Made by a program: the position numbers and the translations under genes
Assembly (NCBI GenBank): GCA_025617745.1
Contig: CM046853.1
Location: forward strand, 15,605,174 to 15,669,173
Reading direction: 5' to 3'
DNA length: 64,000 nucleotides
From: Heliocidaris erythrogramma
Taxonomy: Eukaryota; Echinodermata; Echinoidea; Camarodonta; Echinometridae
Shown: piece by piece, positions 11,601-52,039 of the stretch
Layout of the letters: every line of letters begins with the position of its first letter
Numbering within the stretch: position 1 is the first letter of the stretch
Notes under the pieces: generated by a model
Seen by the model: only the letters and a program-made list of their open reading frames with translations
Database searches by the model: none
Told to the model about the DNA's origin: nothing

Positions 11601-12146
11601 AGAATTTGCATTGATAAATTACAAAATTAAATGAAAAGAGTGAAAAGTTAATAAATTTTCAAATATTTCTATTTTACCTAAAAAAAAAAGAAACATACAA
11701 ATCAAAATTTATCAAATTGCCTGAATTTGAAATATTTAGTTTGCATTATACCTGTACATATAAACACAGTACAATACAGCACCTGCAAATAGTTCTCTCA
11801 AAATAAACATGATAAAACACTTTAAGTTTATGGATTCAGTTAAGATGTAATTTGGGGGGCGTCTTGGCACATAAAACTGCATAAAAAATTGGAGGCTGTG
11901 TAAAGTATGGCTTCATCAAAATATGGGAATCTAATTTTACTTCTGTATAGAGATAATCATCATACAAAAATGACATGCATAAGCGCTCACATAGAAAAGG
12001 GTGTGCGAAACCCAAGTCCACCTTTGGTTCTGTGCGTGTGTTTTAAAATTTTGTCTTTCATTTTCTTCATACTCAAACATGTTTTTCCACAAAGTGTGAG
12101 GCGTTTGAACAACACTTATTTCTTTACTTTAAGATTCTTTCAAAAA
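8601..12146. other. AT-rich intergenic stretch without a recognised gene
   Basis: No exon with coding character, no RNA gene, no clear repeat. Possible distal ELAPOR polyadenylation words. Short open frames look random. Confidence 0.45.
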
Positions 12147-13412
12147 ACAAGAGCCCCAGGGGGCACGACGCTCACCTGAGGTGGATCAATTCACATCTGG
12201 TGCAGGGGCCCCTATAAGGCTACCCTGGGGGCCACATGTACCATTTTAGCAACTTTGGATCCCTATAGAGGTATCTCTATACACAATACCAAGTCTGAGC
12301 TTCCTACCAAGTTCGGTTAAATTCCAATCATGTGTTTTGGAGAAGAAGCTGAAAATGTAAAAAGTTTATGGATGGCGGACAACTTGCCAAACCCCCCCCC
12401 CCTCAGGTATGTTACCCCCACAGACCCCCTATAGGGCCACCCAGAAAAAAATCATGAACCTTTTTCGTCTATAGAGGTATCTCCATACACAATACCAAGT
12501 CTGAGCTATTCCTGGTTCTGGAGAAGAAGATGTTTGAAATTTACATAGCTTTTACAATTGGGGGCCTTCCCCCTGGGCCCCCCTGGGGGCCACATGTACC
12601 ATTTTAGCAACTTTGGATCCCCTAACCCTAAGGATGATTCCTACCAAGTTTGGTTGAATTCCGATCATGTGTTTCGGAGAAGATCAGAATGTAAATTTTG
12701 CCTGGCAGCGCCCCCCCCCTCCAATATGTTACCCCCACAGGGCCCCTATAGGGCCACTCAGAGAAATTTCATGAACAACCTTCATTCTTCATCTATAGAG
12801 GTACATGTATCTCCATACACAATACCAAGTCTGAGCTATGCCTGGTTCTGGAGAAGAAGATGTTTGAAATTTACATAGCTTTTACAATTGGGGGCCCCTC
12901 CCCTTGGGGTCCCCTTGGGGCCACATGTACCATTTTAGCAACTTTGGGTCCCCTACCCCTAAGGATGATTCCTACCAAGTTTGGTTGAATTCCGATCATG
13001 TGTTTTGGAGAAGAAGATCAGAATGTACATTTTGCCTGGCAGCGCCCCCCCCCCCCCCAGTATGTTACCCCCACAGGGCCCCTATAGGGCCACTCAGAGA
13101 AATTTCATGAACAACATTCATTCTTCATCTATAGAGGTATCTCCATACAACCCCCCCCCCCCTCCACTATGTTACCCCCACAGGGCCCCTATAGGGCCAC
13201 TCAGAAAAATTTCATGAACAACCTTCATTCTTCATCTATAGAGGTATCTCCATACACAATACCAAGTCTGAGCTATACCTGGTTCTGGAGAAGAAGATGT
13301 TTGAAATTTGCATAGCTTTTACAATTGGGGCCCCTCCCCCTGGGCCCCCTTGGGGCCACATGTACCATTTTAGCAACTTTGGGTCCCCTACCCCTAAGGA
13401 TGATTCCTACCA
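12147..13412 (-). repeat. Interspersed repeat with internal tandem units, one end truncated
   Basis: Begins AAGAGCCCCAGGGGGCACGA, the reverse complement of the right end of the element at 22315-23217, so it lies in opposite orientation. The interior is about 3-4 units of roughly 320 bp sharing CCACATGTACCATTTTAGCA, CCTACCAAGTTTGGTTGAAT and GTTACCCCCACAGG. The far end is lost at 13412. Noncoding. Confidence 0.8.
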
Positions 13413-14176
13413 ATATTCACAATTAATTCATGAAGATGTCGGTTACTGATTTATTTTATTTTTGGATCCATTGGATTTGCCAAGGAAGATATTAAATGAA
13501 TAATTCTCACTACAACCATGATAAATAGCAACTTTGATTAACTCCTTAAAGGTTTTCCTTTCAACAGAAGCAGAAGTACACTATATTCTATGCTCATCAC
13601 AATAGATCTTCCTTCTTTCTTTACATGTCTTAGATGATCATTCAAATCATACATTGTACATGATATTTCGGAAATGAAAATACAGCCATATGGAAGAGTA
13701 CAGTATGCTTTTACAGAAAAAGAGCTGTCAAATACATTAGTAAACCTAAAAGGAGTGGCCACTAGCTGACATGTGAAGTTATTATAATCTAATATTAATT
13801 TTCATTTTTTTTCAAAAGGATAGTTATAATGGAGAAATTTGTAAGGAAGCAATCATGCAAATCAAATAAAGGGAAGTGAAATGTCTCACAATTTCACTCT
13901 TGCGAAAATTTAATGGATGGTAAAAAACTGACAGTCAAGCAGGAAAGAATGATGAAGGTTGGGAATTCATCTAATCACAGAGGAGAGTACATGTAGTTAA
14001 TAGAAAAGGGAATAACGGTTAATTGCAGGTGCAAGCAGCTGCACTGACAGTGAGGACATTTGTTAAAAATACACCAGTATAGAGCCACAATGAAATGGAT
14101 GGTTTCGAGAAGTAGCCATGGAAACGAGCAATTTAGATGCATGGGCCTTTCGTCATAATTAAAATGGCAAATCTTT
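13413..14176. other. Unassigned stretch between repeat and duplicated segment
   Basis: A minus-strand open frame at 13538-13762 follows an AG acceptor-like tract but matches nothing I know. I do not call it. Confidence 0.35.
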
Positions 14177-22314: not shown

Positions 22315-23217
22315 AGCTCACCTGAGCCTATGGCTCGAGTGAGCTATTGCGATGGAAATTTGTCCGTCGTCCGTCGTCCGTTAACTTTTTACATTTTCAT
22401 CTTCTTCTCCAAAACCCATGATCGGAATTCAACCAAACTTGGTAGGAATCATCCTTAGGGGTAGGGGACCCAAAATTGCTAAAATGGTACATGTGGCCCC
22501 TAGGGGGGCCCAGGGGGAGGGCCCCCAATTGTAAAAGCTATGTAAATTTCAAACATCTTCTTCTCCAGAACCAGGCATAGCTCAGACTTGGTATTGTGTA
22601 TGGAGATACCTCTATAGATGAAGAATGAAAGTTGTTCATGAAATTTCTCTGAGTGGCCCTGTAGGGGCCCTGTGGGGGTAACATACTGGAGGGGGGGGGG
22701 GGCGCTGCCAGGCAAAATGTACATTCTGATCTTCTCCAAAACACATGATCGGAATTCAACCAAACTTGGTAGGAATCATCCTTAGGGGTAGGGGATCCAA
22801 AGGTGCTAAAATGGTACATGTGGCCCCCAGAGGGGGGGCCCAGGGGGAGAGCCCCCAAGTGTAAAAGCTATGTAAATTTCAAACATCTTCTCCAGAACTA
22901 GGAATAGCTCAGACTTGGTATTGTGTATGGAGGTTTTTTTCTGGGTGGCCCTATAGGGGGTCTGTGAAGGTAACATACTGGGGGGGGGGGGGGGGGTGGG
23001 GCAAGTTGTCCGCCATCCATAAACTTTTTACATTTTCAGCTTCTCCAAAACCCATGATTGGAATTTAACCGAACTTTGTAGGAATCTCAGACTTGGTATT
23101 GTGTATAGAGATACCTCTATAAATGAAGAATGAAAGTTGTTCATGTGCTAGAGAGAACATGCACCAGATGTGAATTGATCCACCTCAGGTGAGCATCGTG
23201 CCCCCTGGGGCTCTTGT
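22315..23217 (+). repeat. Full-length interspersed repeat (AGCTCACCTGAGCC...GGGGCTCTTGTT)
   Basis: Begins AGCTCACCTGAGCCTATGG, ends GTGCCCCCTGGGGCTCTTGT, with inner units of the same kind as at 12147-13412 but in the other orientation. Contains GTCCGTCGTCCGTCGTCCGT near its left end. Noncoding. Confidence 0.8.
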
Positions 23218-23555
23218 TATGTATATACTGGCCTCTATGACCTTTGACCTTGAGACCCCAAAATCCAATCAGTTCATCGTCCCTCCCATATGCACACATG
23301 GGCCAAGTTACAAGCTGATCCGCCAAACGGTTCCTAAGTTATCACAAGAACGAACCGTTTTTATGTATATGACCTCTATGACCTTTGACCTTGAGACCCC
23401 AAAATCTAATCAGTTCATCGTCCCTCCCATATGCATACATGGGCCAAGTTACAAGCTGATCCGCCAAACGGTTTTGAAGTTATCGAGAGAACGAAAAGGG
23501 GATGGACGGACGGACGGACGACCCGAAAACAGAATGCCTATGGCGGAGACATAAT
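23218..23555. repeat. Minisatellite-type repeat with GGAC array, two units
   Basis: Two copies of a unit of about 150 bp (TGACCTTTGACCTTGAGACC, CAGTTCATCGTCCCTCCCAT) followed by (GGAC)n and CCCGAAAACAGAATGCCT. It belongs to the same general class as the elements at 25214 and 33085. An (AAAT)n tract follows. Confidence 0.7.
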
Positions 23556-38405: not shown

Positions 38406-40516
38406 AGGTGTCTAGCACTATCTAGGCTTGGTCTACCCCTCTGCGATCCCGATCGAGGTGGTGGCGTTCCCGATGATATGTCAGTTTGCCAAAACTTGGC
38501 TCATCGAGGTTTTTTTGCTTGCTGTTCGTTGTTTGCTTGTCTTTGGTACCGAGAGACCGACAATGTAGTGTGTGTGTGTGGGGGGGGGGGGGGGGGGGGC
38601 TTCTGAACCATTGGCAGATCCGGGGGGGGCACAGCGGGCCCGTGCCCCCCCCCCCTTTTGGAAGAGAAGTATGAATTTTGACCATAGACGATCCGCCATT
38701 TTCTCCGTTGTGCCCCCCTTTTAGAGTGAAGACCTTTACTGAGCGATTTTTGAAGGTTTGGCGAAATTTTTTTTTTGTCCATACAATTTTATTTAAAAGC
38801 CTCCTAAATCCGCCACTGATCCATGCCCGGACTGTCAGGTCAGTCTTGCGGGGTGGGCCTTTTTACAAGTTTTTTCTAAGATGGTTAATAGAACGGCATT
38901 TTTAGGCTCTTGGGCTTCCAAACTAAATTTGGTGCTCGATCCGGGTTTTTCACAATTTAGGCAAGATCCCGTATATGCCAACTTGGCCGATTCGCCCCCT
39001 CTTGATCCGCCCCTGCTATTCTGTCATGGATGTGAAGAATATAATTGCGTAGTGTTGGTGGTCGATCTCATTAAATTGAAAGATTGGGGGGGGGGAGCAA
39101 TAAGAGATCATTTTTATTTTTATTTTTTTTTTAATTTTGTTCCAATTGCTTTATTTTTACTGTTTGTTTTTGTTGGGTTTTTTTTTTTTTTTTTGCTCAG
39201 TGATTTTGTTTTTAATCATGTAAATCACTTGTAACGGTTGTGATTTCTTTTGATTTCCTAATAAAAAAACAAATTAAAAAAATAAGAGATCATTATTTTT
39301 TCCTCAATTCTATTGGAGTCATTTTTACAGATCTGTTGTAAGAGAGAAAAGAGAGTATGAGAAAATTGAGGGGGGGGGGGTAGAGACAAAGAGAGATGGG
39401 GGCAAAAGTAATGGGATATTCCTACAAATACAGAATAGGACTGGTAATAAATAAATTATATCATCAGCTGCTATATTGTTGGTTACTAGCTAATTCAATT
39501 CAAAACACGGAGGCCACCCCCCCCCCCCCCTTTTCGTACAATCGGTAAAGGCCCTATTGCGTTGGTGGTGGTTTCGGGGCAAGCCCCTATACTGTTTTCT
39601 TCGCCTGTCGTCTCACATTTCTACAGCAGAATATTACAAATAACTTACTGTAAGTTGGTTATATTGTTGGCGTATCCAGGAATGCAGGGAGAGGGGGAGA
39701 CTCACGTCTGACGAACAAAGAAATCAGCAGATGCATTCTATTTTGAATTTTTAGGACAAACAAGGAAAAAAATTATCACAGTTTTCAGATTATTTCTATG
39801 GGGGGGGGGGGTACACATTTCCTTTCATATTATGTCAGATTTTGTTTTGGCTGGCACATAGGGGCATGTACATTCCTGGATAATCTTGGATACGCCACCC
39901 TTAACGTAATCTTTATATTTATATAAGGAATTGCTCGCACGCAATCTCATTTTATTAAAGCCTTTTCTAGCTGTCTTGAATTTAAAAAGAATAGGGCTAA
40001 TAAAATTACATTGCAGGTCTATAATCCCTATAACTTCCATAAATCATATCAAATGAAATAAAGATAGCACATTATTATTTTTAAATAACTTTTTCGACAT
40101 TCCCGTCAGATATCGCAGTGTTTGCTCATATAGAGCTTAATATCAGGGAACATGTTTGGACCCCCATCATCACATAAATATTAATAGCAATTTCATAGCA
40201 ATAACTTTAACAAAAATACAAACATCTAGTCCGAGGCCCCGCTCCCAACTCTCTCCCTCTCCTCCCTGGTGCAGTTAGAGTTGATTCCTATCTGTTTTGG
40301 GACATAATTTTGTATTTGAAGGGACAATATCAAGATTATGCCCTTTAGTTACGGCTTTACCAAAAGGCAAAAGCGCTGTCCAGAAAAAGAAGAAAAAATA
40401 AAGAAAGTAAAAAAATACAAACATCTTGATTAAGACTATAACCTTTCCCTCCGGGCCGATCGACATGTACCACAATATATACGCGTGCTTTATTTCGGCA
40501 CTGAGCACTCTTCGCT
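38406..40516. other. Low-complexity, homopolymer-rich intergenic stretch
   Basis: Holds several G or C runs (38580, 38648, 39369, 39519, 39799), T-rich runs near 39120-39195 and decayed repeat text. No gene seen. Confidence 0.4.
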
Positions 40517-40528
40517 GGGCGTTGTGCA

Positions 40529-40564
40529 CACAGAACTCCTAAAGACGTCTTTAGGAGTTCTGTG
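40529..40564. repeat. 36-bp perfect palindrome inside the SINE 1 head
   Basis: CACAGAACTCCTAAAGAC followed directly by its reverse complement. It lies in a 48-bp segment that interrupts GTTGTG|GCGTGCG relative to SINE 2. Confidence 0.85.
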
Positions 40565-40859
40565 GTTGCGCATGTGGCGTGCGCCTGTAATCCAGCTACC
40601 AGTGATTCAGCGGACCCAGGTTCGAGACCGAGTCACGTCTTTCGGATGGTGACGTTAAAGGTCGGTCCCAGACGTAAATAATCATATCTGATTGATACTT
40701 TTTTTTTTTCAATGATCTTTATTAACGATTCCATGAAACAAATTATACAATCATATTCTCTTTGAATGTTTTAACAATATAAACAAATAAAATAGTTTAT
40801 CATCACTTATATAATTATCATGCAAAATATTCTTCCTCTGGAATGTAAAATCAAAACTA

Positions 40860-42000
40860 ATTAATTTGAACGAAATCCGTCAAGAAATGCAGAAGTAAGA
40901 GTGCAAGAAATGGAAAAATGACCTTTGACCCTATAAAGGACGGAACAATGAGGGCAGCATCACCAAAAATTAAATATGTGTAGATTATACCAAGATACAT
41001 CTCCATACAAAATTTGAATGAAATCCGTCAAGAAATGCAGAAGAGTGCACAAAAGGGACAAATGACCTTTGACCCTATAAAGGACGGAACAATGAGGGCA
41101 GCATCACCAAACAGTAAAGATGTGTAGATTATACCAAGATACATCTCCATACAAAATTTGAAAGAAATCCATCAAGAAATGTGGCCTGCAGAGTGAACTC
41201 ATGCCATCCCTTGAAGTATGACCTTTGACCCTATAAAAGGCGGGACACTGGTGGCAGCATCACCAAAAAGTACAGATTTTTAGATTACACCAAGGGACAC
41301 CTTCATGCAAAATTTGAACGAAATCCGTCGAGAAATGCAGAAGTAAGAGTGCAAGAAAGGGAAAAATGACCTTTGACCCTATAAAGGACGGAACAATGAG
41401 GGCAGCATCACCAAAAATTAAACATATGTAGATTATACCAAGATACATCTCCATACAAAATTTGAACAAAATCCGTTGAGAAATGTGGCCTGCAGAGTGC
41501 ACTCACGCCATGCCCTGAAGTATGACCTTTGACCCTATAAAAGACGGAACACTGGTGGCAGCATCACCAAACACTATAGGTTTTTAAATTACACCAAGAG
41601 ACACCTTCATGCAAAATTTGAACGAAATCCGTTGAGAAATGTGACCGCCAGAGCGCACATAAGAGTACACACAAGACATCTATCAAAATATGACCTTTGA
41701 CCCTATAAAAGACGGAACACTGGGGGCAGCATCACCAAAATCTATAGGGTTCCAGATTTTACCAAGAGACACCTTCATACAAAATTTGAACAAAATCCGT
41801 TGAGAAATGTGACCGCTAGAGCGCACACAAACTATGCCCAAAAATATGGCCTTTTACCCTATAAAAGACGGAACACTGGGGGCAGCATCACCAGAAACTA
41901 TAGGGGTCCAGATTTTACCAAGATACACGTCCACAGGAAGTCTGAAAAAAATTCGTCGAGAAATGTGACCGCTAGAGCGCACACAAGAATGTGACGCGGC
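40860..42000. repeat. Minisatellite of about eight ~150-bp units in the L1-Tx1 3' region
   Basis: Units share TGACCTTTGACCCTATAAA, GGCAGCATCACCAAA, ACCAAGATACATCTCCATAC and AAATCCGTYGAGAAATG. Ends against a (GGC)7 run near 41998-42018. Confidence 0.8.
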
Positions 42001-42654
42001 GGCGGCGGCGGCGGCGGCGAAACGCTGCTGAATCCAAAGTATCCTCCGGCATACTGCCGGGGGATACAATAATATTAGTGTGATGATGTATATCCAAACA
42101 AAGTGAACGAATCATAATTTTTCGGAATCTATTATTTAAAAAAAATAAAAAACAAAAACAAACAACGACAAGGACCCCCTCCCTACCCACATATGCCCCT
42201 ACCTACCCCATTCCCTCCGGAACTACCACTGCGTAGAAACCTTCCATCCCTCCCACCCACACTTAAAATCAAAATAAAATAAAAATCACAACTGAAATAT
42301 TTCAGTGACTTTTATACATGATCATATGAACAATAGAAGATAAGGCTTGACACACTGAAATACATTACTAGAAATACAATTAATCATCACTAAAACTATT
42401 TCAATGAATTGAACATGTTAAACATCAAAGGAGAGAGAAAAAAAAACCTTAACAATTTTATAAGAGAGAGAGAAACAAAATGAGTGATATCTTTCTTCTT
42501 TACCAAAAAACCTACCCCTTTGACCTTCCCTAACCCCCACCCTCCTTTAAAAAAAAACACAAAACACAAACAACCGCAACACACCCACACAGACACACCA
42601 CACTACACACACACATTCACAAATCCTCTTTCAACTCTCTCTCTCACCCTCTCC

Positions 42655-45617
42655 TTACCCCTGGATATCGCCCCCAGTCCTGCCATGTCGGTGCAATCTC
42701 TCCCATTTTAACAAATGCTTATCTAACTTATTCCTTTTAATAGCTATTGCTTTTTCTTCATTTTGATATTCTAACAAGATTTGAAAACATCTTTCTTGAG
42801 TAGGAACTCTTCCCTCTGACCTTGTCTTAAAAATAATATATTTCATTAAGAAAATCACAGTATTGCAAAATTTAATTTCAGGGTCGGATCCAGTAATTCC
42901 CACGTGTATTTCCTTCCACTCTGCCTTCCGGAGATTTGCTAAACCTAGTTTTTCAATAACTATTTGCCATAAAACCTTTACATCACGACAAGCCCAAAAT
43001 AGGTGTTCGTATGATTCCGATTTATGCTTGCAGAATGAACAGTAATTGTTATCAACAAATCCAAATTTGAAAAGATGTTCATTTGTGTATATTGCACCAT
43101 GGAGTAATTTATACTGAAATTCCCTGACTTTCGGCAAAATTGTTGTAGTTCTAAGTCTTATGAATATTTGTGAAATTTCTTTTTCTGAAAAATCAAAATG
43201 GTTGTGATCATCTTTTATTCGTAAAGTATACAGGTGCTGGAGATTAGTTACAAAGTTTTCGTAAACCGTTCTAGATGGTACATCTTTCAGAAAAATAACT
43301 TTTCCAAAAATCTTCAAAGAAATATTATAATTGTCTACGTCATTTAAGCATAAGTCCTGGAAGTTCCCTTTATATTTTCCGCTTTTCAAAACGACATCAC
43401 TTATCTTCCAAATTTCCATAATATTTTCAGCATGCACTCATGCCCAGTCTATGAAAATAATTTGTTTTCACCTGTTCTCTCTCAAGAATGTGATCGACTA
43501 GGTAAATATTCTTTTTAAACAACTCTTCATCAAAAATCATTTTACCTCTCAAAAGGTAGTTTTTATTATTTAAAATAATTGGATTGAATTTTCCTTCAAA
43601 GTTCCCGTTTTCCTCAATATCCTGCCAAGCCTTTAAAATCTCTAAATAAAACTGCGAGGCTTTCAGATTCAATAACCTAATATCATAATTACAAAGCGAG
43701 ATAAACCTTCCACCCACTTTTCTAAAGATGTAATCAAAATAAAGTTTCCAGCCCATATTTGTTTCCCCATAAAGTAATCGTTTTAACCACATTACCCTTT
43801 GGGTTTTCACAAATAAATCAAAATCCATCATCCTTAAGCCACCATCCCTGTAGTCTTGATAGCAAATATCTCTTTTAATTCTATCTTTTCCATTCCATAT
43901 GAAATCAAAGCTAATTTTCTTAATTTCTATTCCTACCCACCTTGGAACAACTAATGACGACGAAACGTAGTTTAATTTTGACAAGGCATATGTTTTGAGC
44001 AAATGTACTTTCCCCATCACTGTTAAATCTCTCTGTTTCCACCACCACAAAAGTCTTTTAATTCTACTCAAGATTTCTTTATAATTCAAATCTTCCATTC
44101 TCATTGCATCGAGGCAAAAATATACGCCTAAAATCTTCATTTCCGTTACAATATTACCAAAAGGTAATGTTCCCGACTCTCTTCTATTTTTACCTATTCT
44201 CATTACATTGGTTTTTTCACTTAATTTATAGAAAGCTAGGAATATATCTTGTATTCTTTTAATCGATGATTCATTCCTTACAAACATTGTCATGTCATCG
44301 GCATACAGAATTTATCGAATTTCAGAATTATCGAATTCCACTCCTTTAATAGCACTATCATTTCTAAGGGCGTGAGCCATAGTTTATATAACTAGCAAAA
44401 ACAAATACGGTGAAAGCGGGTCCCCCTGCCTTACCCCTCTCTTAATATAAAAATAACCTGTAGAGAAGCCTCCATTCATAACGCAACTACTAATTCCATT
44501 ATACATGGTTTTAACCCAAGAACAAAAATACTGTCCAAACCCAAATAATTCCAATACTTTGAAAAGAAATTTGTGTGAGACAGAGTCAAAAGCCTTTTGA
44601 AAATCGACTGCTATAAGGAAAACATCTTCCTCACAATGGTTATTACAGTGAAAAATTACATCCTCTATCAAACGTATAGCTTCACCAATATGTCTACCAT
44701 TTATATAGCCTACTTGATCAGCAAAAATAACATCATTCAGGACGTCCTTTATTCGTTTTGCCATTACTTTTGATATTATCTTATAGTCGGTGTTCAACAG
44801 CGTAATTGGTCTATAATTTTTAGCATATAAAGGATCCTTACCGTCTTTTTCAATTAATGTTATGACACCTTGTTTCTGAGAAGTCGATAAACAACCTTTT
44901 TCAATTGCTTCATTAAAAACATCAACCAGTAACCCTCCTAACTGCGGCGGCCAAAATGTGAGATAAAATTCTGCTTTAAACCCATCATTACCAGGGGATT
45001 TATTAATTTTCATACTTGTTAGTGCTTTATAACATTCTTCTCTGGTAATTTTTCCTTCACATGTGTTCTTACTTTCGACGCTTAGGCGCGGTAAATATTT
45101 ACAAAATATACTATCTTCTTTTAAATCAGCCTCCACATCTAAATTTTTTTGTATACAAATTTTTATAAAAGCCTCTCAATGTTTGCAATATTGTTTTCCT
45201 GTCTGTCACAACCTCCCCATTATCACTGACCAGTTCCCTTATTTGAGTTTTCTTTTTATTAGAACGAAGTATCTGCTCAAAGTACTCTTTATTATGTTCA
45301 CCATCTTCGTACCAAACAGCTCTTGACCTGACCTTGAGTCTATCTACGGACATATTATATAATTTCTTTAGCTGACTTTTTTTAGCTTCTATATTTTTGA
45401 TAACTGAGGAACTATTGGGAGAGAGGACTAGATCTTCCTCTAGTGATATTATTTCTTTTTCAAGTTGTTGTATATTGTGTCTCCTTTCTTTCGATTTCTT
45501 CCTAGCGTATTTCGAAGCATAATTTCTCATTTTCATTTTAAGAAAGTCCCAAAATGAAGATATATTATTGAATTCTTTCAACCACTTTATTTCCACCACT
45601 CTGATTTCCTCACACAT
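42655..45617 (-). pseudogene. L1-Tx1 reverse transcriptase and C-terminal region
   Basis: Linker (45617-45126), RT core with NDGFKAEFYLTFWPPQLGG, NYRPITLLNTDYKIISKVMA, FQKAFDSVSHKFLF and RGVRQGDPLSPYLF (45136-44384), a YADD box just before 44293, thumb region (44293-43427) and a CSFCKHKSESYEHLFWAC zinc-knuckle (RVT zinc-binding) with stop at 42655. The pieces are in shifted frames with at least three breaks, so it is inactive. The family is assigned from the RT and zinc-knuckle style. Confidence 0.85.
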
Positions 45618-45668
45618 CCCCTGTACAAAGTCTTTATCTAAACATAAAGTATTATTAAATTTCCAATA

Positions 45669-45911
45669 TTATTTTCCATGCATTTCATTACCTCGTAATG
45701 GTTTCAGTTCTAAAAGGATTCCCGAATGGTCAGGAGCAATTAAAGTTATAATATCACATGTATTTCTTTTACTTTCCAAATTTCTTGAAATAAACCAGTA
45801 GTCAAGACGACTTTGCACAAGTGGGGTATTCTGTCTAAAAGTAAATTTCTTTGTCGTTGGGTTTTGTTTCCTCCATATATCAATTAATTCAAGTTTACTT
45901 AAAAACACTTC
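45669..45911 (-). pseudogene. L1-Tx1 endonuclease, C-terminal part
   Basis: Reads LEVFLSKLELIDIWRKQNP, then PLVQSRLDYWFISRNLE and APDHSGILLELKPLRG: the SRLDYWFIS and DHSG blocks hold the Asp and His of the AP-endonuclease active site. Continues the N-terminal part at 48723-48209 across the inserted SINE 2. Confidence 0.85.
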
Positions 45912-45988
45912 TAATTGTGTGTGTGTGTGTGTGTGTGTAATTGGGTTTTTACAGACGTGTATCAATCAGTTATGATTATTTACGTCTG

Positions 45989-48108
45989 GGACCGACCTTT
46001 AACGTAATAGTAGTAGTAGTAGTATTTATTTTCCGTTCAGTTAAAACAAAACAATAACATACATGTACATTATAAGTGTTTACATTTGAATGAAACGGCT
46101 GGATAACCCATATTCAGCTGTGCCAGGCACGACACTACTGGTCTTCCATGGGGTCCAGGAAGCATAAAAAATAAATTAATTGTATAAATATCAAACATGA
46201 CATATGATTAATAATTCAAAGAATATAAGAAGATACAAGACAAAATTACAGTGGTAGTTATACGTAAGGACTACTAACACTCCCCCCCCCCCCCCCCCAA
46301 TACAGAACATACAGAATCCCGAGGCTGGAATATATCAAGTTATCAAGGTCAGAATGATTTAACAGAGTGGAACAACGATAGTTCACGTTTGAAAGCATTC
46401 AGTGTTGAGGCAGTTCGTACAAATACAGGAAGATTATTATAGGCCATGACTCCTCTATACTTGAAACTTCTTTTCAAAAAATCAGTACGAGGCTTTGGCG
46501 TACATAGTTTTTCACCAAAGCGTAAGTCATATTTATGCACAGAAATATTAAAAGAGTCTGAAATGTAGGTAGGAGTCATATCATTAAGGGATTTGAACAT
46601 GTAAGTTAGTAAATGCTGATTTCTCCGGTCTTGTAACGTTTCCCAGTTAAGGGCATTGTGTATTTCTAAATTAGGTATACGAGAGTCACGGTTGATATGT
46701 AAAATTAAACGTCCAGCACGGTTTTGGAGTTTTTGTAATCTTTCAGTTACATATTTACAGGCCGAGCCATATATGATATCTCCGTAGTCAAAGTGGGGAA
46801 GAACAACTGCATTATACACTAATTTTAATATAGATTCATTTAAGGTGCTTCTTAATCTGCCAAGAAAGCTTACCATTTGTCCTAATTTTTTAATCATCTT
46901 ATCTGTGTGAATATTCCATTTAATTTGCTCATCACAAATGACACCTAAGTACTTGACATTATCTACTTGTTTAATTTGGGTCCTGGAAAGGGTGACATTT
47001 AAGTTCTTTTCTTTTGACAGCATATATCGACTCCCAATTAACATACAAACTGTTTTTTCATAATTTACACTAAGTCTATTTTTATTCATCCAGTGATCTA
47101 AAAGAAGAAGATCAGTGTTTAAAACCGATTCAATTTTACGTACTGATGTATCGGAGTAATAAAGAACTGTGTCATCTGCATATAATTTCAAACAGCTTGA
47201 CTTAACATTTTTTGCAAGATCGTTGACATATATGATAAATAAGAGAGGCCCTAAAAGAGATCCTTGCGGGACCCCGCAAGATATAGGTTTGGATGATGAA
47301 AGAGAATGATTAACAAGTGTTTTGCATGTTCTTCCACTTAGATAGCTATAGAACCAGTTACTAGTCAAATTTTTAATGCCGATGCTATTCATTTTCTTCA
47401 TAAGAATTTGATGGTCAACAGTGTCGAATGCTTTTCGCAGATCGATAAATACGGCGCCTGTATATTTAGAATCGTCCATGGCTTGTAGCCAGTCATCCGT
47501 GACCTTTATCAAAGTGGATGTGGTCGAATGTTTAGGTCTGAATCCAGACTGTTCTCTACATAAAATATCATGTTTATGTAAGTAGTCTAGTAATTGGCGT
47601 TGTACAACGCGTTCTAAAATCTTTGACACACAAGGCAATAACGAAATTGGCCTGAAATTACCCGGTGAAGATGTATCACCCTTTTTATGTATAGGAACAA
47701 CTTTAGCTGCTTTCCAAGGATTTGGGAATTTTCCCATTTCCATTGATTTGTTGATTAAGTAAGTGAGGACGGGAACAATTTCTATGGCACTTAACTTCAA
47801 GATGAATACTGAGATTCCATCAAGACCAATTGATTTTTTATTTTTCAATTTTCTGATTAATTTCAGTGTTTCAGTTTCGCTTATGGGTGTAAAGCTAAAC
47901 GTGCTGTCCAAAGTTTCGCTGCTGTCGAACGGAAGGTGAACTGATGGAATTTGATCGGCTAAAGTTGTTCCAATACTTGCAAAATACGAGTTAAAATCTT
48001 CGGCTACTTTACAGCTTTCATTTGCATCACCTATTGAAGAGTTACTTTTATTATCAGAAATGACTGATTTTAAAATTTTCCATGTTTTTCTTGGACCGAC
48101 CTTTAACG
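45989..48108 (-). mobile_element. LINE 2: CR1/L2-type LINE, 5'-truncated, perfect 16-bp target duplication
   Basis: The element body is 46005-48092. GGACCGACCTTTAACG occurs at 45989-46004 and 48093-48108. The 3' end on the minus strand has AATAAA followed by a (TAC)n tail. No endonuclease part is left, so it is 5'-truncated. The clade is from RT style and the trinucleotide tail. Confidence 0.88.
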
Positions 48109-48115
48109 TCACCAT
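46349..48115 (-). CDS. LINE 2 reverse transcriptase, 588-codon open frame
   Basis: Retroelement reverse transcriptase for target-primed reverse transcription. RT blocks in order: VVPIHKKGDTSSPGNFRPIS, GFRPKHSTTSTL, VFIDLRKAFDTVDHQIL, SCGVPQGSLLGPLLFIIYVN and LKLYADDTVLYY (catalytic ADD), followed by the thumb (NYEKTVCMLIGSR, VDNVKYLGVICDEQIKW) and a C-terminal region ending FKRELSLFHSVKSF. No stop or frameshift, in contrast to the surrounding L1-Tx1. The first eight codons (MVTLKVGP) come from the flanking SINE 2; the LINE itself starts at RKTWKIL. Lacking the 5' endonuclease, it is not a complete element. Confidence 0.88.
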   Translation of the reverse strand: MVTLKVGPRKTWKILKSVISDNKSNSSIGDANESCKVAEDFNSYFASIGTTLADQIPSVHLPFDSSETLDSTFSFTPISETETLKLIRKLKNKKSIGLDGISVFILKLSAIEIVPVLTYLINKSMEMGKFPNPWKAAKVVPIHKKGDTSSPGNFRPISLLPCVSKILERVVQRQLLDYLHKHDILCREQSGFRPKHSTTSTLIKVTDDWLQAMDDSKYTGAVFIDLRKAFDTVDHQILMKKMNSIGIKNLTSNWFYSYLSGRTCKTLVNHSLSSSKPISCGVPQGSLLGPLLFIIYVNDLAKNVKSSCLKLYADDTVLYYSDTSVRKIESVLNTDLLLLDHWMNKNRLSVNYEKTVCMLIGSRYMLSKEKNLNVTLSRTQIKQVDNVKYLGVICDEQIKWNIHTDKMIKKLGQMVSFLGRLRSTLNESILKLVYNAVVLPHFDYGDIIYGSACKYVTERLQKLQNRAGRLILHINRDSRIPNLEIHNALNWETLQDRRNQHLLTYMFKSLNDMTPTYISDSFNISVHKYDLRFGEKLCTPKPRTDFLKRSFKYRGVMAYNNLPVFVRTASTLNAFKRELSLFHSVKSF

Positions 48116-48208
48116 CCGAAAGACGTGACTCAGTCTCGAACCTGGGTCCGCTGAATCAGTTTATAACCTCCACTGGTGGCTGGATTACAGGCGCACGCCA
48201 CAACGCCC

Positions 48209-48723
48209 AATTTGTTCACAAAATTCGTTTTAACCTTCACACTAGCTCAGATGTAATCCAGTTCTTTGTTTAATATTACGTTAAAATCTCCCCCTAAAAC
48301 AACTGAGTAATTTTGAGAATACAAGTTTGAAATACACTTGTCCAAATGTTCTAAAAAGGTTATTTGTTGCTGTACCTTTTCCCTAGTTGGAAGATAAACA
48401 TTTCCCAACAGCAGTTTATACCCTAATAAATCCCCTTTCAAAAGCACGAAACGCCCATCGTCATCTTTAACTACTTGATCAAGCTTAAAATTCAGTCCTG
48501 GTTTTAACAGAATAAGTACACCTTTACTATTAGAACCATGGCTGTAAAAGACCTGCCCTCCCCATTCCTTTCTCCACTTTTCCTCAATGTCGTACGTACT
48601 ATAAGTTTCCTGTAGCATAACTACATCCCCTTTTCTCGTTTTGACCCATCCTAAAATTGTTTCCCTTTTACTTCTATCCCTCATGCCCCTCACATTTAGT
48701 GAAATAAAGTTTAAGCCCTCCAT
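48209..48723 (-). pseudogene. L1-Tx1 endonuclease, N-terminal part
   Basis: MEGLNFISLNVRGMRD opens ORF2; LQETY and GGDFNVILNKELDY supply the metal-binding Glu and the Asp/Asn of the AP-endonuclease fold. One in-frame TGA follows ELDYI, then ASVKVKTNFVNKL leads to the SINE 2 junction at 48208. Confidence 0.85.
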
Positions 48724-48940
48724 ATCAAATGGGTATTGCTAAAACAACTTTTCCAGCGCTTGCAATGCATATACACCCGCAGAGAGATAGGAAATACAGA
48801 GATGAGAACTACTACATGTTTAATGGTAACTAATGACCCGTAATCACAACTGCTATAGCTACGAAACAATCTATGAATAAACATGAGGATGGTTAAAGAA
48901 CAGCAGGAATGAAGGCGGTAACCAACACACTTCACACATG

Positions 48941-48971
<31 letters not shown>

Positions 48972-49510
48972 ATTCTCCCATACACTACCCTTACAAAAAA
49001 AAACAAAGAAAGACTGTTCATCTCCAAACACAAATGCAGATTTCGAAAATTTGGAGGCCCCTCCCATCCCTTATTCTATGGCTTTTAAACTCAAAATATT
49101 AACCTACTTTTCTTAAAAAAAGGACCCAAAATTTGTCTAATTATATGCAAAAAAAAATAATACCCAATTATACTTCGAGGGGAAAAAAGAAGACAATAAA
49201 GACAGATATAATAGATAAACAGTTGGGTCAAATCCTGTCACATTGAATTAAAATATGTAGCCTATACACCTTCCAACAATTTAATAGTAGTAAGAATTCA
49301 ATATTCAACATAGAGGCTTAAATATGAGAGAATTACGTTGAGTTTGGTTGCATAATATAAATAACTATATGAATGCAATTTCCTTTTTAAAGCATTCCTA
49401 AAAATTAAAAAGAAAAAATATTAATAAATAAATAAAGTAATTAAATATCATAATTGATAGGATTGAAGTAAATTGAATATATCATAAAGAAAATGTGAGA
49501 AAATTACAAT

Positions 49511-49581
49511 GCCCCGACCGGGATTCGAACCCGGGACCCTGGATTACATGACCAGTGCTCTACCAACTGAGCTATCCGGGC
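49511..49581 (-). tRNA. tRNA-Thr(UGU)-like sequence, probably pseudogene or SINE head
   Basis: 71 nt with acceptor arms GCCCGGA/TCGGGGC (one mismatch), a good D stem GCTC/GAGC, a TGT anticodon, and a perfect T arm around GGGTTCGAATCCC. Base 33 is A rather than U and 31-39 is T-T, both unusual. TTTT occurs shortly downstream. It lies within the LINE spacer. Confidence 0.5.
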
Positions 49582-49912
49582 TCCCGTCGAAGCACAGTAA
49601 CAATCTCACATATAGCCCCTCTCTTTCCATCGAGCGTAGGGGGTACATACATAAAATAAAGTCTTTTACAATGTCCTTATGCTTAAAATACTTCGATATC
49701 TCCTCGTGAAATGTAATAAATCTTCTCATCTGCGTTTGTGCAGAAGAGAAGGGGAACCATATATGTTATATGATTTAAATACAATCTCCCTATGTTCTCA
49801 ATCCTCTGAAAATGGCCGAAGACCAGCTGGGGACGAGTCCTGTTTAAAAGCACGGCTCGCCCTCCTGCCGTCGCCAGACCATTCAACCTATCCCCGCATT
49901 GACCAGCTACGT

Positions 49913-50186
49913 TGGTGACCACAAGGAGCCGGTGACGAGGTCTCAAACAATATACTCTCGCCTCCCAGCTAACCCGGGCCAATCAGAGCCAAGAAAACGT
50001 GCAGTGTCGTGACTATATAGAAGAAATAATTACGTCATCCCGATTCAAAACTCTGGCGACGACGAGAAGCCAGTGACGAGGTCATCAAAACAAAACATGA
50101 ACTCTCGCCACCCAGCCTCCGCGGACCAATCACAGCTGATGAAAACAGCCACATCATGACTACTGAACAGCTAATTACCTCGCCCG
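49913..50186. repeat. Two ~135-bp units each with a CCAAT box
   Basis: Units share GCCGGTGACGAGGTC/GCCAGTGACGAGGTC, ACTCTCGCC and CCAATCA. The first also has a TATATAG word and ACGTCATC. Promoter-like text; the transcript it might drive is not known. Confidence 0.5.
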
Positions 50187-51230
50187 ATCCAGGGTCTTAC
50201 ATCATATAAATTTGAAAAGCTATTTTCCTTCTCTTATCTTGACAAAATGGTCTTTACATTCATTTCGTAGATATTCCAGCCCTTTAAATATTTCTCGTCC
50301 CCTGACAACACTTAGGAATCCTAAAACTATTGGGGAAGAAGAATCTTGCCCCCTGAAATAAAAACATCTGTACCTGACGATATTATGTATAATGCTATTC
50401 ATTTGCAGGGTGTCAGACAAGGGCCCCTTATAAATGTGAATGGTACATATTTTCAGTTACGTAATTCAATCGGGATAACCATTCTGTGCCTCACACAGGC
50501 AAAAGGGCTAAGTTTTAAAAGAATACCTCAAAGCTATCCTCCTTCTCCCATCCTTTCAACATTATTTTGTAAAGGTACATCTTTACATTTTTTCGTAGAC
50601 GTGAACCTCTTAAATATTTATCGATTGACGGCATTGACAGTCATGAAACTCGTGGAAAATGTCTTTTGTCACTTCAAGTAAAATGACTGCCCCTAACGGT
50701 GCTTTGTATATGCTATTCACATGCATGGTGTCGGACAAAAACCCTTATAAACATGAGTGAGCGTATCTTTTCAGTTACATAGTTTCACCGATAACCATTC
50801 TGTGGAATTTCATTAGGACTACAATCTTTAGATATACATACAATAGATTATAATGTAACTTAAACGTTTTCTTTTTACCTCCTTGACCTCCCAAATCTTT
50901 TTAGTAAGGCATTCCTGTATAAGATCAGTTATGGGAACAAAGAGAATACCGACCTCTCCCTACATTTAAGCGTTCTTCATTCAGGAACATTTTCCTCATT
51001 ATTTAGAGAGGCATTTCTATTCTCCATTTTTATAACTCGATCCGTTATCGTTTTCAGGTTCACAATTTTATTCATCAGTTCAATTATTTTTTTGTTTCTC
51101 TCAGCATGGCTAAACAGATTAAAGGACAAATCAACGCCAATTTCTTAATTGCAAATCATTTGCGTGAAGAAGAAAGAAAAGAAAAAAAGAAAGCACTTAA
51201 TCATTTCACGTTAATATATACAATGATTTG

Positions 51231-51510
51231 AGCATCCCGGATCCAACAGACAAAATAAAATTCAACAAAACACTTGTCACTTCCATGGTTGATGCTAACT
51301 TCTGACAAAATTTCAAAATTTCATATGAGCATCCCGGATCCAGTAGACGAAACAAAATTCAACAAACACTTGTCACTTCCATGACCATGGATGATGATAA
51401 CTTCTGACAAAATTTCAAAATTTCATTATGAGCATCCCGGATCCAATAGACAAAACAAAATTCAGCAAACACTTGTCATATCCATGGATGATAACTTGTG
51501 ACGAAACTTC
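51231..51510. repeat. Three tandem ~100-bp units
   Basis: Each begins GAGCATCCCGGATCCA and runs through AAATTCARCAAA, CACTTGTCA and TAACTTSTGAC. Confidence 0.85.
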
Positions 51511-51639
51511 ATAGAGATACTTTCTCCAACCATACTTTCTCAAACCATGCTTTCTCCAATCTCTACGCTTAAATCAAGATGCGAGAAAAAAAAAAACTGC
51601 TCTGGAATCAGCTATTATTCATTATGATTTTGTTGTTAT

Positions 51640-51981
51640 TCACAATACCATTAAACTTTGCTCTGCAGCTCCAGTTGTATCTCCCACCACCTCTCCACCA
51701 GTAGCAGCCACTGCGGCCCCCTCCGTAAAACTCGGTATGGCCGCCGTGACTGTCGCCGTGGCTCCCGCTATGGCTGCCGGAGTCGCTCCCCCTGTGGTTG
51801 CTGGAGCAGCTCCTGCCACCGTTGTCGGGATCCTCGTGTTAGGTGATTTCCTTCTCGCTTCTTCGCCCTTTGCTCGTTGGTTTTCGAAGTTTCGAACAAA
51901 TGCTTCCTGTTGATTTGGGGGCATGTAGACATTATTTATGAAGAGCTTTGCTGGGTCTGCCCGTGAGAAGAAAGCCAACTT
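51640..51981 (-). pseudogene. L1-Tx1 ORF1-like C-terminal part
   Basis: Reads KLAFFSRADPAKLFINNVYM, then MPPNQQEAFVRNFENQ and an Ala/Gly/Thr-rich tail to a stop at 51640. The PAKLFINN phrase resembles the C-terminal region of L1 ORF1 proteins. The 5' part is missing, cut exactly where SINE 1 resumes. Confidence 0.5.
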
Positions 51982-52001
51982 TACACGTTTGTAAAAACCC
52001 A

Positions 52002-52039
<38 letters not shown>

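Follow-up and report, generated by a model that had tools for sequence, protein, structure and literature searches.

A young SINE family joins the first 44 nucleotides of host 7SL RNA to a body shared with a tRNA-headed SINE2 in a likely sea urchin genome

The analysis of the window, by which we mean the whole stretch of 64,000 nucleotides under study, reveals three pieces of one SINE (Table 1). One lies on the forward strand, one is split and lies on the reverse strand, and one is a tail-only piece on the forward strand. The sequence blocks quoted in the preliminary description of this DNA are present in the window, and the core TTCGGATGGTGACGTTAAAGGTCGG occurs there exactly twice versus 0 occurrences in 100 shuffles. 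That description had counted two copies, each with an (AC)n tail. Two core-bearing copies are indeed found, but the pieces number three in all and one of them is split by a LINE. The (AC)n tail ends copy 2, while copy 1 lacks both this tail and the final 20 nt of the unit, and the (AC)n at position 52039 belongs to the third, tail-only fragment.

The reverse strand between 42655 and 48738 presents three nested retroelements, in which an L1/Tx1-like LINE holds the SINE and the SINE in turn holds a Jockey/CR1-like LINE with a 17-nt target duplication. The 17-nt sequence ACGTTAAAGGTCGGTCC is found at either side of the inner LINE, which therefore jumped into SINE copy 2. The domains of the outer LINE are an Exo_endo_phos match (E 8.5e-10, 48247-48738) and an RVT_1 match (E 9.8e-28, 44384-45175). 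The palindrome arms seen in the head of copy 1 (CACAGAACTCC and GGAGTTCTGTG; 40529-40564) are also present in the core of a second SINE copy (locus L009, 593-617). Two different SINE copies have been hit by this palindrome, at different places, and it is perhaps a tiny foldback element.

Beyond the SINE, the window holds a host gene frame with a Fanconi anemia-associated domain (PF15146; 30380-31408, reverse strand) and another with a rhodopsin-family receptor domain (PF00001; 55334-56386, forward strand). It also holds inverted repeats of about 1 kb (12146-13413 and 22366-23218) that lie 9 to 11 kb apart, are built of shorter repeats and have stretches up to 98% complementary. Four tRNA-Cys genes were observed within about 4 kb at locus L050 (5715-9734). 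The genome carries a Bindin gene (PF02084, 239.9 bits), for which 14 control genomes gave no match; the five control genomes named for the 7SL gene search described below are prokaryotes. Bindin is a sperm protein of sea urchins, and this gene points to a sea urchin as the host.

Table 1. Pieces of the SINE in the window and the retroelements nested with them
Feature	Position	Strand	Description
SINE copy 1	40515..40698	+	Consensus positions 2-149; head with palindromic insert, 14-nt internal deletion
Palindromic insert within the 7SL-derived head of copy 1	about 40527..40572	.	Arms CACAGAACTCC / GGAGTTCTGTG; borders approximate
SINE copy 2, whole span	48211-45916	-	Head and core 48211-48093, later LINE, remainder 46005-45916
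Copy 2, 7SL-derived head	48166..48211	-	SRP Alu 5' domain: helices 2, 3 and 4; 7SL-type A box; RF00017 match
Copy 2, part common to the tRNA-headed SINE2 family	48093..48165	-	B box GGTTCGAGAC and central core; ends at LINE insertion
Copy 2, 3' part beyond the LINE	45916..46005	-	First 17 nt are the duplicated target; CAGACGT/ACGTCTG hairpin tail and (AC)n
LINE inside SINE copy 2	46006..48092	-	RVT_1 E 1.2e-40; Jockey/CR1-like by eye; open RT frame
Outer LINE holding SINE copy 2	42655..48738	-	L1/Tx1-like by eye; endonuclease and RT fragments
SINE copy 3, 5'-truncated	51982..52039	+	Consensus 147-169 and (AC)n

The family unit comprises 169 nt followed by (AC)n. The genome (1.06 Gb in 26 contigs) was searched with a 125-nt SINE query, and the best 40 of 284 candidates were scored. 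Among the 27 copies fetched, two were repeat fetches (L021 of L003 and L022 of L004); 13 of the 27 were identical to the 169-nt unit, or 12 of 25 distinct places, figures that describe the best matches only. Copies L002 and L003 have common flanks and look like one insertion that was duplicated. Of 44 distinct matches that were aligned, 31 were full-length. Sampling at round coordinates (20 stretches, 10 kb each) yielded one headed copy (97% identical) and three diverged body-only relatives. A 45-nt pattern across the junction between the 7SL and SINE2 parts matched 3,946 genome places at up to 3 mismatches, a count that takes in copies lying locally in tandem, such as those near C1:35,968,000, and its reversed control matched 0. 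Tandem SINE clusters were observed at C1:35967849-35969619 and at C1:7720645-7721221, the latter with 181-nt spacing. We conclude that the 7SL-headed SINE family is real and young.

The origin of the head was investigated by comparison with the 7SL genes of the host itself. These were found with an Rfam RF00017 (Metazoa_SRP) search, in which 26 of 11,405 first-look candidates were scored and gave 23 matches. At least 18 full-length host 7SL genes exceed the Rfam cut-off, with 12 on contig C16, mostly in one tandem array. Nucleotides 1-36 of the SINE are identical to nine of the 12 host 7SL genes that were fetched, and the other three differ at 1-2 letters. These 36 nt are followed by a 2-nt insertion, one change and then TGGAAGT, which is again identical to 7SL; across positions 1-46 of the SINE and 1-44 of the main host 7SL type, 43 of 44 letters are the same with the one 2-nt insertion. 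The family unit scores 76 against a host 7SL gene while the maximum of 1000 shuffles is 28; the resemblance is beyond chance. Likeness to 7SL beyond position 36 plus TGGAAGT is at chance level (464 of 1000 shuffles as good), and no match above chance was found in the SINE for the 3' end of 7SL, that is, for the second half of its Alu domain. The S domain of 7SL is absent from the SINE, unlike in a plain 7SL retrocopy.

Within the window, positions 1-44 of the 299 positions of RF00017 match the head of copy 2 with 28.2 bits and an E value of 5.6e-6 in 191 nt. The gathering score of this model is 70, and the match is consequently absent from the whole-window scan at that score. With E values up to 10 allowed, RF00017 matched neither copy 1, the head of which is broken by the insert, nor 50 kb of sequence from elsewhere in the genome that served as a control.

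The remainder of the unit has a different affiliation. One of the relatives in the random sample, L051, is a diverged body-only match that carries a different front. A search with L051 was followed through the best 40 of 377 candidates, and eight of these 40 (L061-L068), chosen to include front matches, were read. These eight belong to one SINE2 family, which has GTTGGTCTAGCGGTAACG as its tRNA-like front and GGTTCGAATCT as its B box. Compared with the SINE2 consensus, the 7SL SINE is identical at 10 of 14 positions in 47-60, 35 of 40 in 61-100 and 67 of 69 in 101-169, but at 17 of 46 in 1-46; a tRNA-type SINE has therefore had its front exchanged for a 44-nt 7SL 5' domain. The B box GGTTCGAGACC of the 7SL SINE is of tRNA type and common to the tRNA-headed family. 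The preliminary description had assigned the CCCAGGTTCGAGAC block to the 7SL-like head together with the letters before it; positions 1-46 are indeed 7SL, and the block is the tRNA-type B box of the tRNA-headed SINE. The CCCAGGTTCGAGAC block, the core and the tail all derive from this tRNA-headed SINE, which looks older and resides in the same genome. The central core may resemble Nin-type or Meta-type cores. The SINE2 head itself scores 16.5 against the tRNA-Thr gene of the window (maximum of 300 shuffles 14.5) and is not above all 300 shuffles against three tRNA-Cys genes; neither ARAGORN nor Rfam called a tRNA in L061-L068.

The border between the two parts falls at a defined point of the RNA structure, as the 7SL-derived piece runs as far as the final base of helix 2, on its closing strand, in the SRP Alu 5' domain. 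When the SRP 5'-domain fold is imposed, the standard pairs of helix 2 (ACU/AGU), helix 3 and helix 4 use the same letters in the SINE and in host 7SL, with energies of -8.2 and -9.2 kcal/mol, respectively; this agreement follows from the identical letters, and only the border is added information. The 46-nt head folded alone forms the hairpins of helix 3 and helix 4, with four pairs in helix 4 versus five in 7SL, and helix 2 is in neither minimum-energy fold, that of the SINE or that of host 7SL. Host 7SL has helix 3 in its minimum-energy fold, but the full-length SINE RNA does not. Of the two-loop Alu fold named in the preliminary description, both 5'-domain hairpins form in the isolated head, and the first is missing from the full-length minimum. 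The SINE retains UGU and the loop sequences, with a widened second (helix 4) loop, and has no 3' Alu half. According to the accessible part of PMC8137916, SRP9/14 recognise the UGU motif, and the loops pair in the canonical Alu fold.

The manner of insertion was examined at the ends of the copies, which finish with (AC)n behind a predicted CAGACGT...ACGTCTG hairpin. We read 14 tail places, picked by eye from 100 listed ones because no exact core was listed beside them. Nine proved to be headed 7SL-SINE copies with changes, one was a SINE2, and four were 5'-truncated copies with unlike upstream DNA, as expected if copying begins at the 3' end. Target-site duplications are weak: exact flanking repeats of at least 8 nt were present at only three of 26 distinct insertions (13, 14 and 8 nt), not counting one of 24 nt that lies within tandem repeats. 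One unit of the C16 7SL array contains the SINE, and the site is empty in units from five other loci; at most 2 nt are duplicated at this insertion, and an extra A stands before ACTGGG. This SINE copy (L017, 2405-2573) lies within the tandem array in the immediate neighbourhood of its ancestor gene, which it adjoins. No LINE with this SINE tail was seen in the loci examined, including the 14 tail places.

We hold the joint description with high confidence: the unit consists of 169 nt and (AC)n, its positions 1-46 correspond to host 7SL 1-44, the rest of it (47-169) matches a SINE2 family that looks older and has a tRNA-like head, the same junction recurs at thousands of places, and one copy sits in the 7SL array at a site that is empty in other units.

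Several other explanations were weighed against this description. An ordinary tRNA-derived SINE head with no more than a chance resemblance to 7SL is exceedingly improbable. Such a head would agree with the tRNA-type B box shared with the tRNA-headed family, and the first 90 nt do beat most shuffles against four tRNA genes (0 to 5 of 300 shuffles as good), a result that we attribute to the B box. However, the comparison of head with tRNA suggested in the preliminary description comes out on the side of 7SL, with the same 90 nt scoring 40 against host 7SL and 13.5 to 16 against the four tRNA genes; 36 consecutive letters equal host 7SL, and no tRNA is called in the element by ARAGORN or Rfam. 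The 5' part, which in a SINE2 comes from a tRNA, is 7SL here over positions 1-46. We regard it as very improbable that, in place of one mobile family, there is a set of 7SL retropseudogenes, each fused to a LINE or SINE end by a template switch of its own. Identity of the first 36 nt to most of the host 7SL genes read would be in keeping with this origin, yet it is contradicted by the uniform junction, which has an identical 2-nt insertion at the 3,946 places with at most 3 mismatches. All five sub-threshold RF00017 matches in the genome are, moreover, copies of this SINE, one of them truncated. Chance, a tRNA-only head and 7SL pseudogenes were all rejected.

What the head does for the element is a separate matter. 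It is quite possible, though we place it somewhat short of an even prospect, that the 7SL piece serves only as part of a Pol III promoter, providing a working A box and no SRP role, and that the family spread by virtue of a strong hybrid promoter or a lucky master copy. The spacing of the A box at 5 and the B box at 70 is close to that of human 7SL (6-15 and 76-86, as given in the available text of PMC7245038), the 3' Alu half is missing, and helix 3 is lost in the full-length energy minimum, all of which would suit a promoter. The piece nevertheless terminates precisely at the 5'-domain foot, with UGU and both loop sequences retained, which is more than an A box would require.

We propose the following course for the birth and spread of the element. 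The chimera probably arose when a reverse transcriptase working on SINE2 RNA jumped to 7SL RNA at the foot of helix 2. Pol III would then transcribe the SINE from a hybrid internal promoter, composed of the 7SL A box (position 5) and the tRNA-type SINE B box (position 70), both of which are present in the unit by sequence only. The predicted transcripts would start at or next to ACTGGGCG and run into (AC)n, and a LINE enzyme would recognise the 3' hairpin and (AC)n and reverse-copy the RNA starting at its 3' end. From the SINE/LINE pairs of S. purpuratus described in the accessible portion of PMC3747384, our guess by analogy is that the partner LINE may be a CR1 or L2. The kept 5' domain may, as a tentative suggestion, bind SRP9/14 and ride near ribosomes making the LINE protein, and such putative binding would explain why the 7SL-headed form outnumbers its tRNA-headed sister. 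The 32-nt tRNA-like head matched 257 places (at up to 3 mismatches), the shared core 5,380 and the tail 5,061, about equal to the core. Because the pattern lengths, and probably the family ages, differ across the counts compared, the apparent excess of 7SL-headed over tRNA-headed copies is suggestive only. We put forward, as a possibility that is less likely than not, that a lone 44-nt 7SL 5' domain, outside vertebrates, may act as an SRP9/14-binding plug-in that boosts retrotransposition by a non-L1 LINE, and that the SINE overtook its parent family after this domain replaced the tRNA front.

The 7SL SINEs, which include Alu, are the best-studied class. Like Alu and B1 of primates and rodents, the present family has the 7SL 5' domain with its A box in front and is numerous. 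Alu and B1 consist of 7SL alone (1-63, 76-83 and 267-299, in the available part of PMC7245038), with poly(A) and L1, whereas our family is chimeric, ends in (AC)n and is without the 3' Alu half. With a head equal to host 7SL, a body common to the SINE2 of the host and an (AC)n tail, it falls outside the Alu/B1 lineage, which descends from a single Euarchontoglires ancestor. Its 7SL-derived head, the removal of the S domain and the many uniform interspersed copies agree with membership of SINE1; both Alu halves, a trait of earlier members that stands outside the definition, are not found here.

The closest likeness is with SINE1-1_EBu of the hagfish Eptatretus burgeri, as described in the accessible text of PMC7245038, which also has a 7SL head set on a body and tail taken from an older SINE with a tRNA head in its genome, is young, lacks the S domain and has a microsatellite tail. 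The hagfish head, however, comprises 96 nt from the 5' part of 7SL and about 44 nt from its 3' end and so contains both Alu halves, together with the 7SL B box, whereas only 44 nt of 7SL are present here and the B box comes from a tRNA-type SINE; the hagfish element also has an RTE-derived tail and a host from another phylum. The sea urchin elements SURF1/SINE2-4c_SP, SINE2-3_SP and SINE2-8_SP have tRNA heads and CR1 or L2 partners (Ohshima 2013, PMC3747384, in its accessible portion). They share with our family the likely host group and, in the genome studied here, a tRNA-type SINE2 sister, a likeness drawn from their listing and not from sequence.

In the accessible text of Kojima 2024, 7SL SINEs are listed only from primates, rodents and hagfish, and this source together with Kojima 2020 (PMC7245038) gives, in the parts available, two well-supported origins, both vertebrate, with the marsupial and guinea pig cases putative and unproven. 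Among the open-access papers listed by our searches, none reported an invertebrate 7SL SINE; a prior naming in Repbase, SINEbase or subscription papers is possible. The rarity outside primates and rodents that the preliminary description had asserted is, within these searches, borne out as far as invertebrates are concerned, but a hagfish 7SL SINE was already known (PMC7245038); that description's reading of a 7SL-type head on a SINE core was mostly right. The origin described here is independent of Alu/B1 and of the hagfish family. What is new is this independent origin, the far smaller 7SL part and the predicted hybrid A/B promoter.

This further origin, in an invertebrate and from a much shorter stretch of 7SL, shows what part of that RNA suffices. 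Moreover, the 7SL-headed SINE and its tRNA-headed sister, with nearly the same body and tail in one genome, provide a clean pair for testing whether success is due to the head or to chance. Should the proposed SRP9/14 plug-in prove true, this family would give invertebrates their first natural test of the kind, one showing that neither the 3' Alu half nor the 7SL B box is required.
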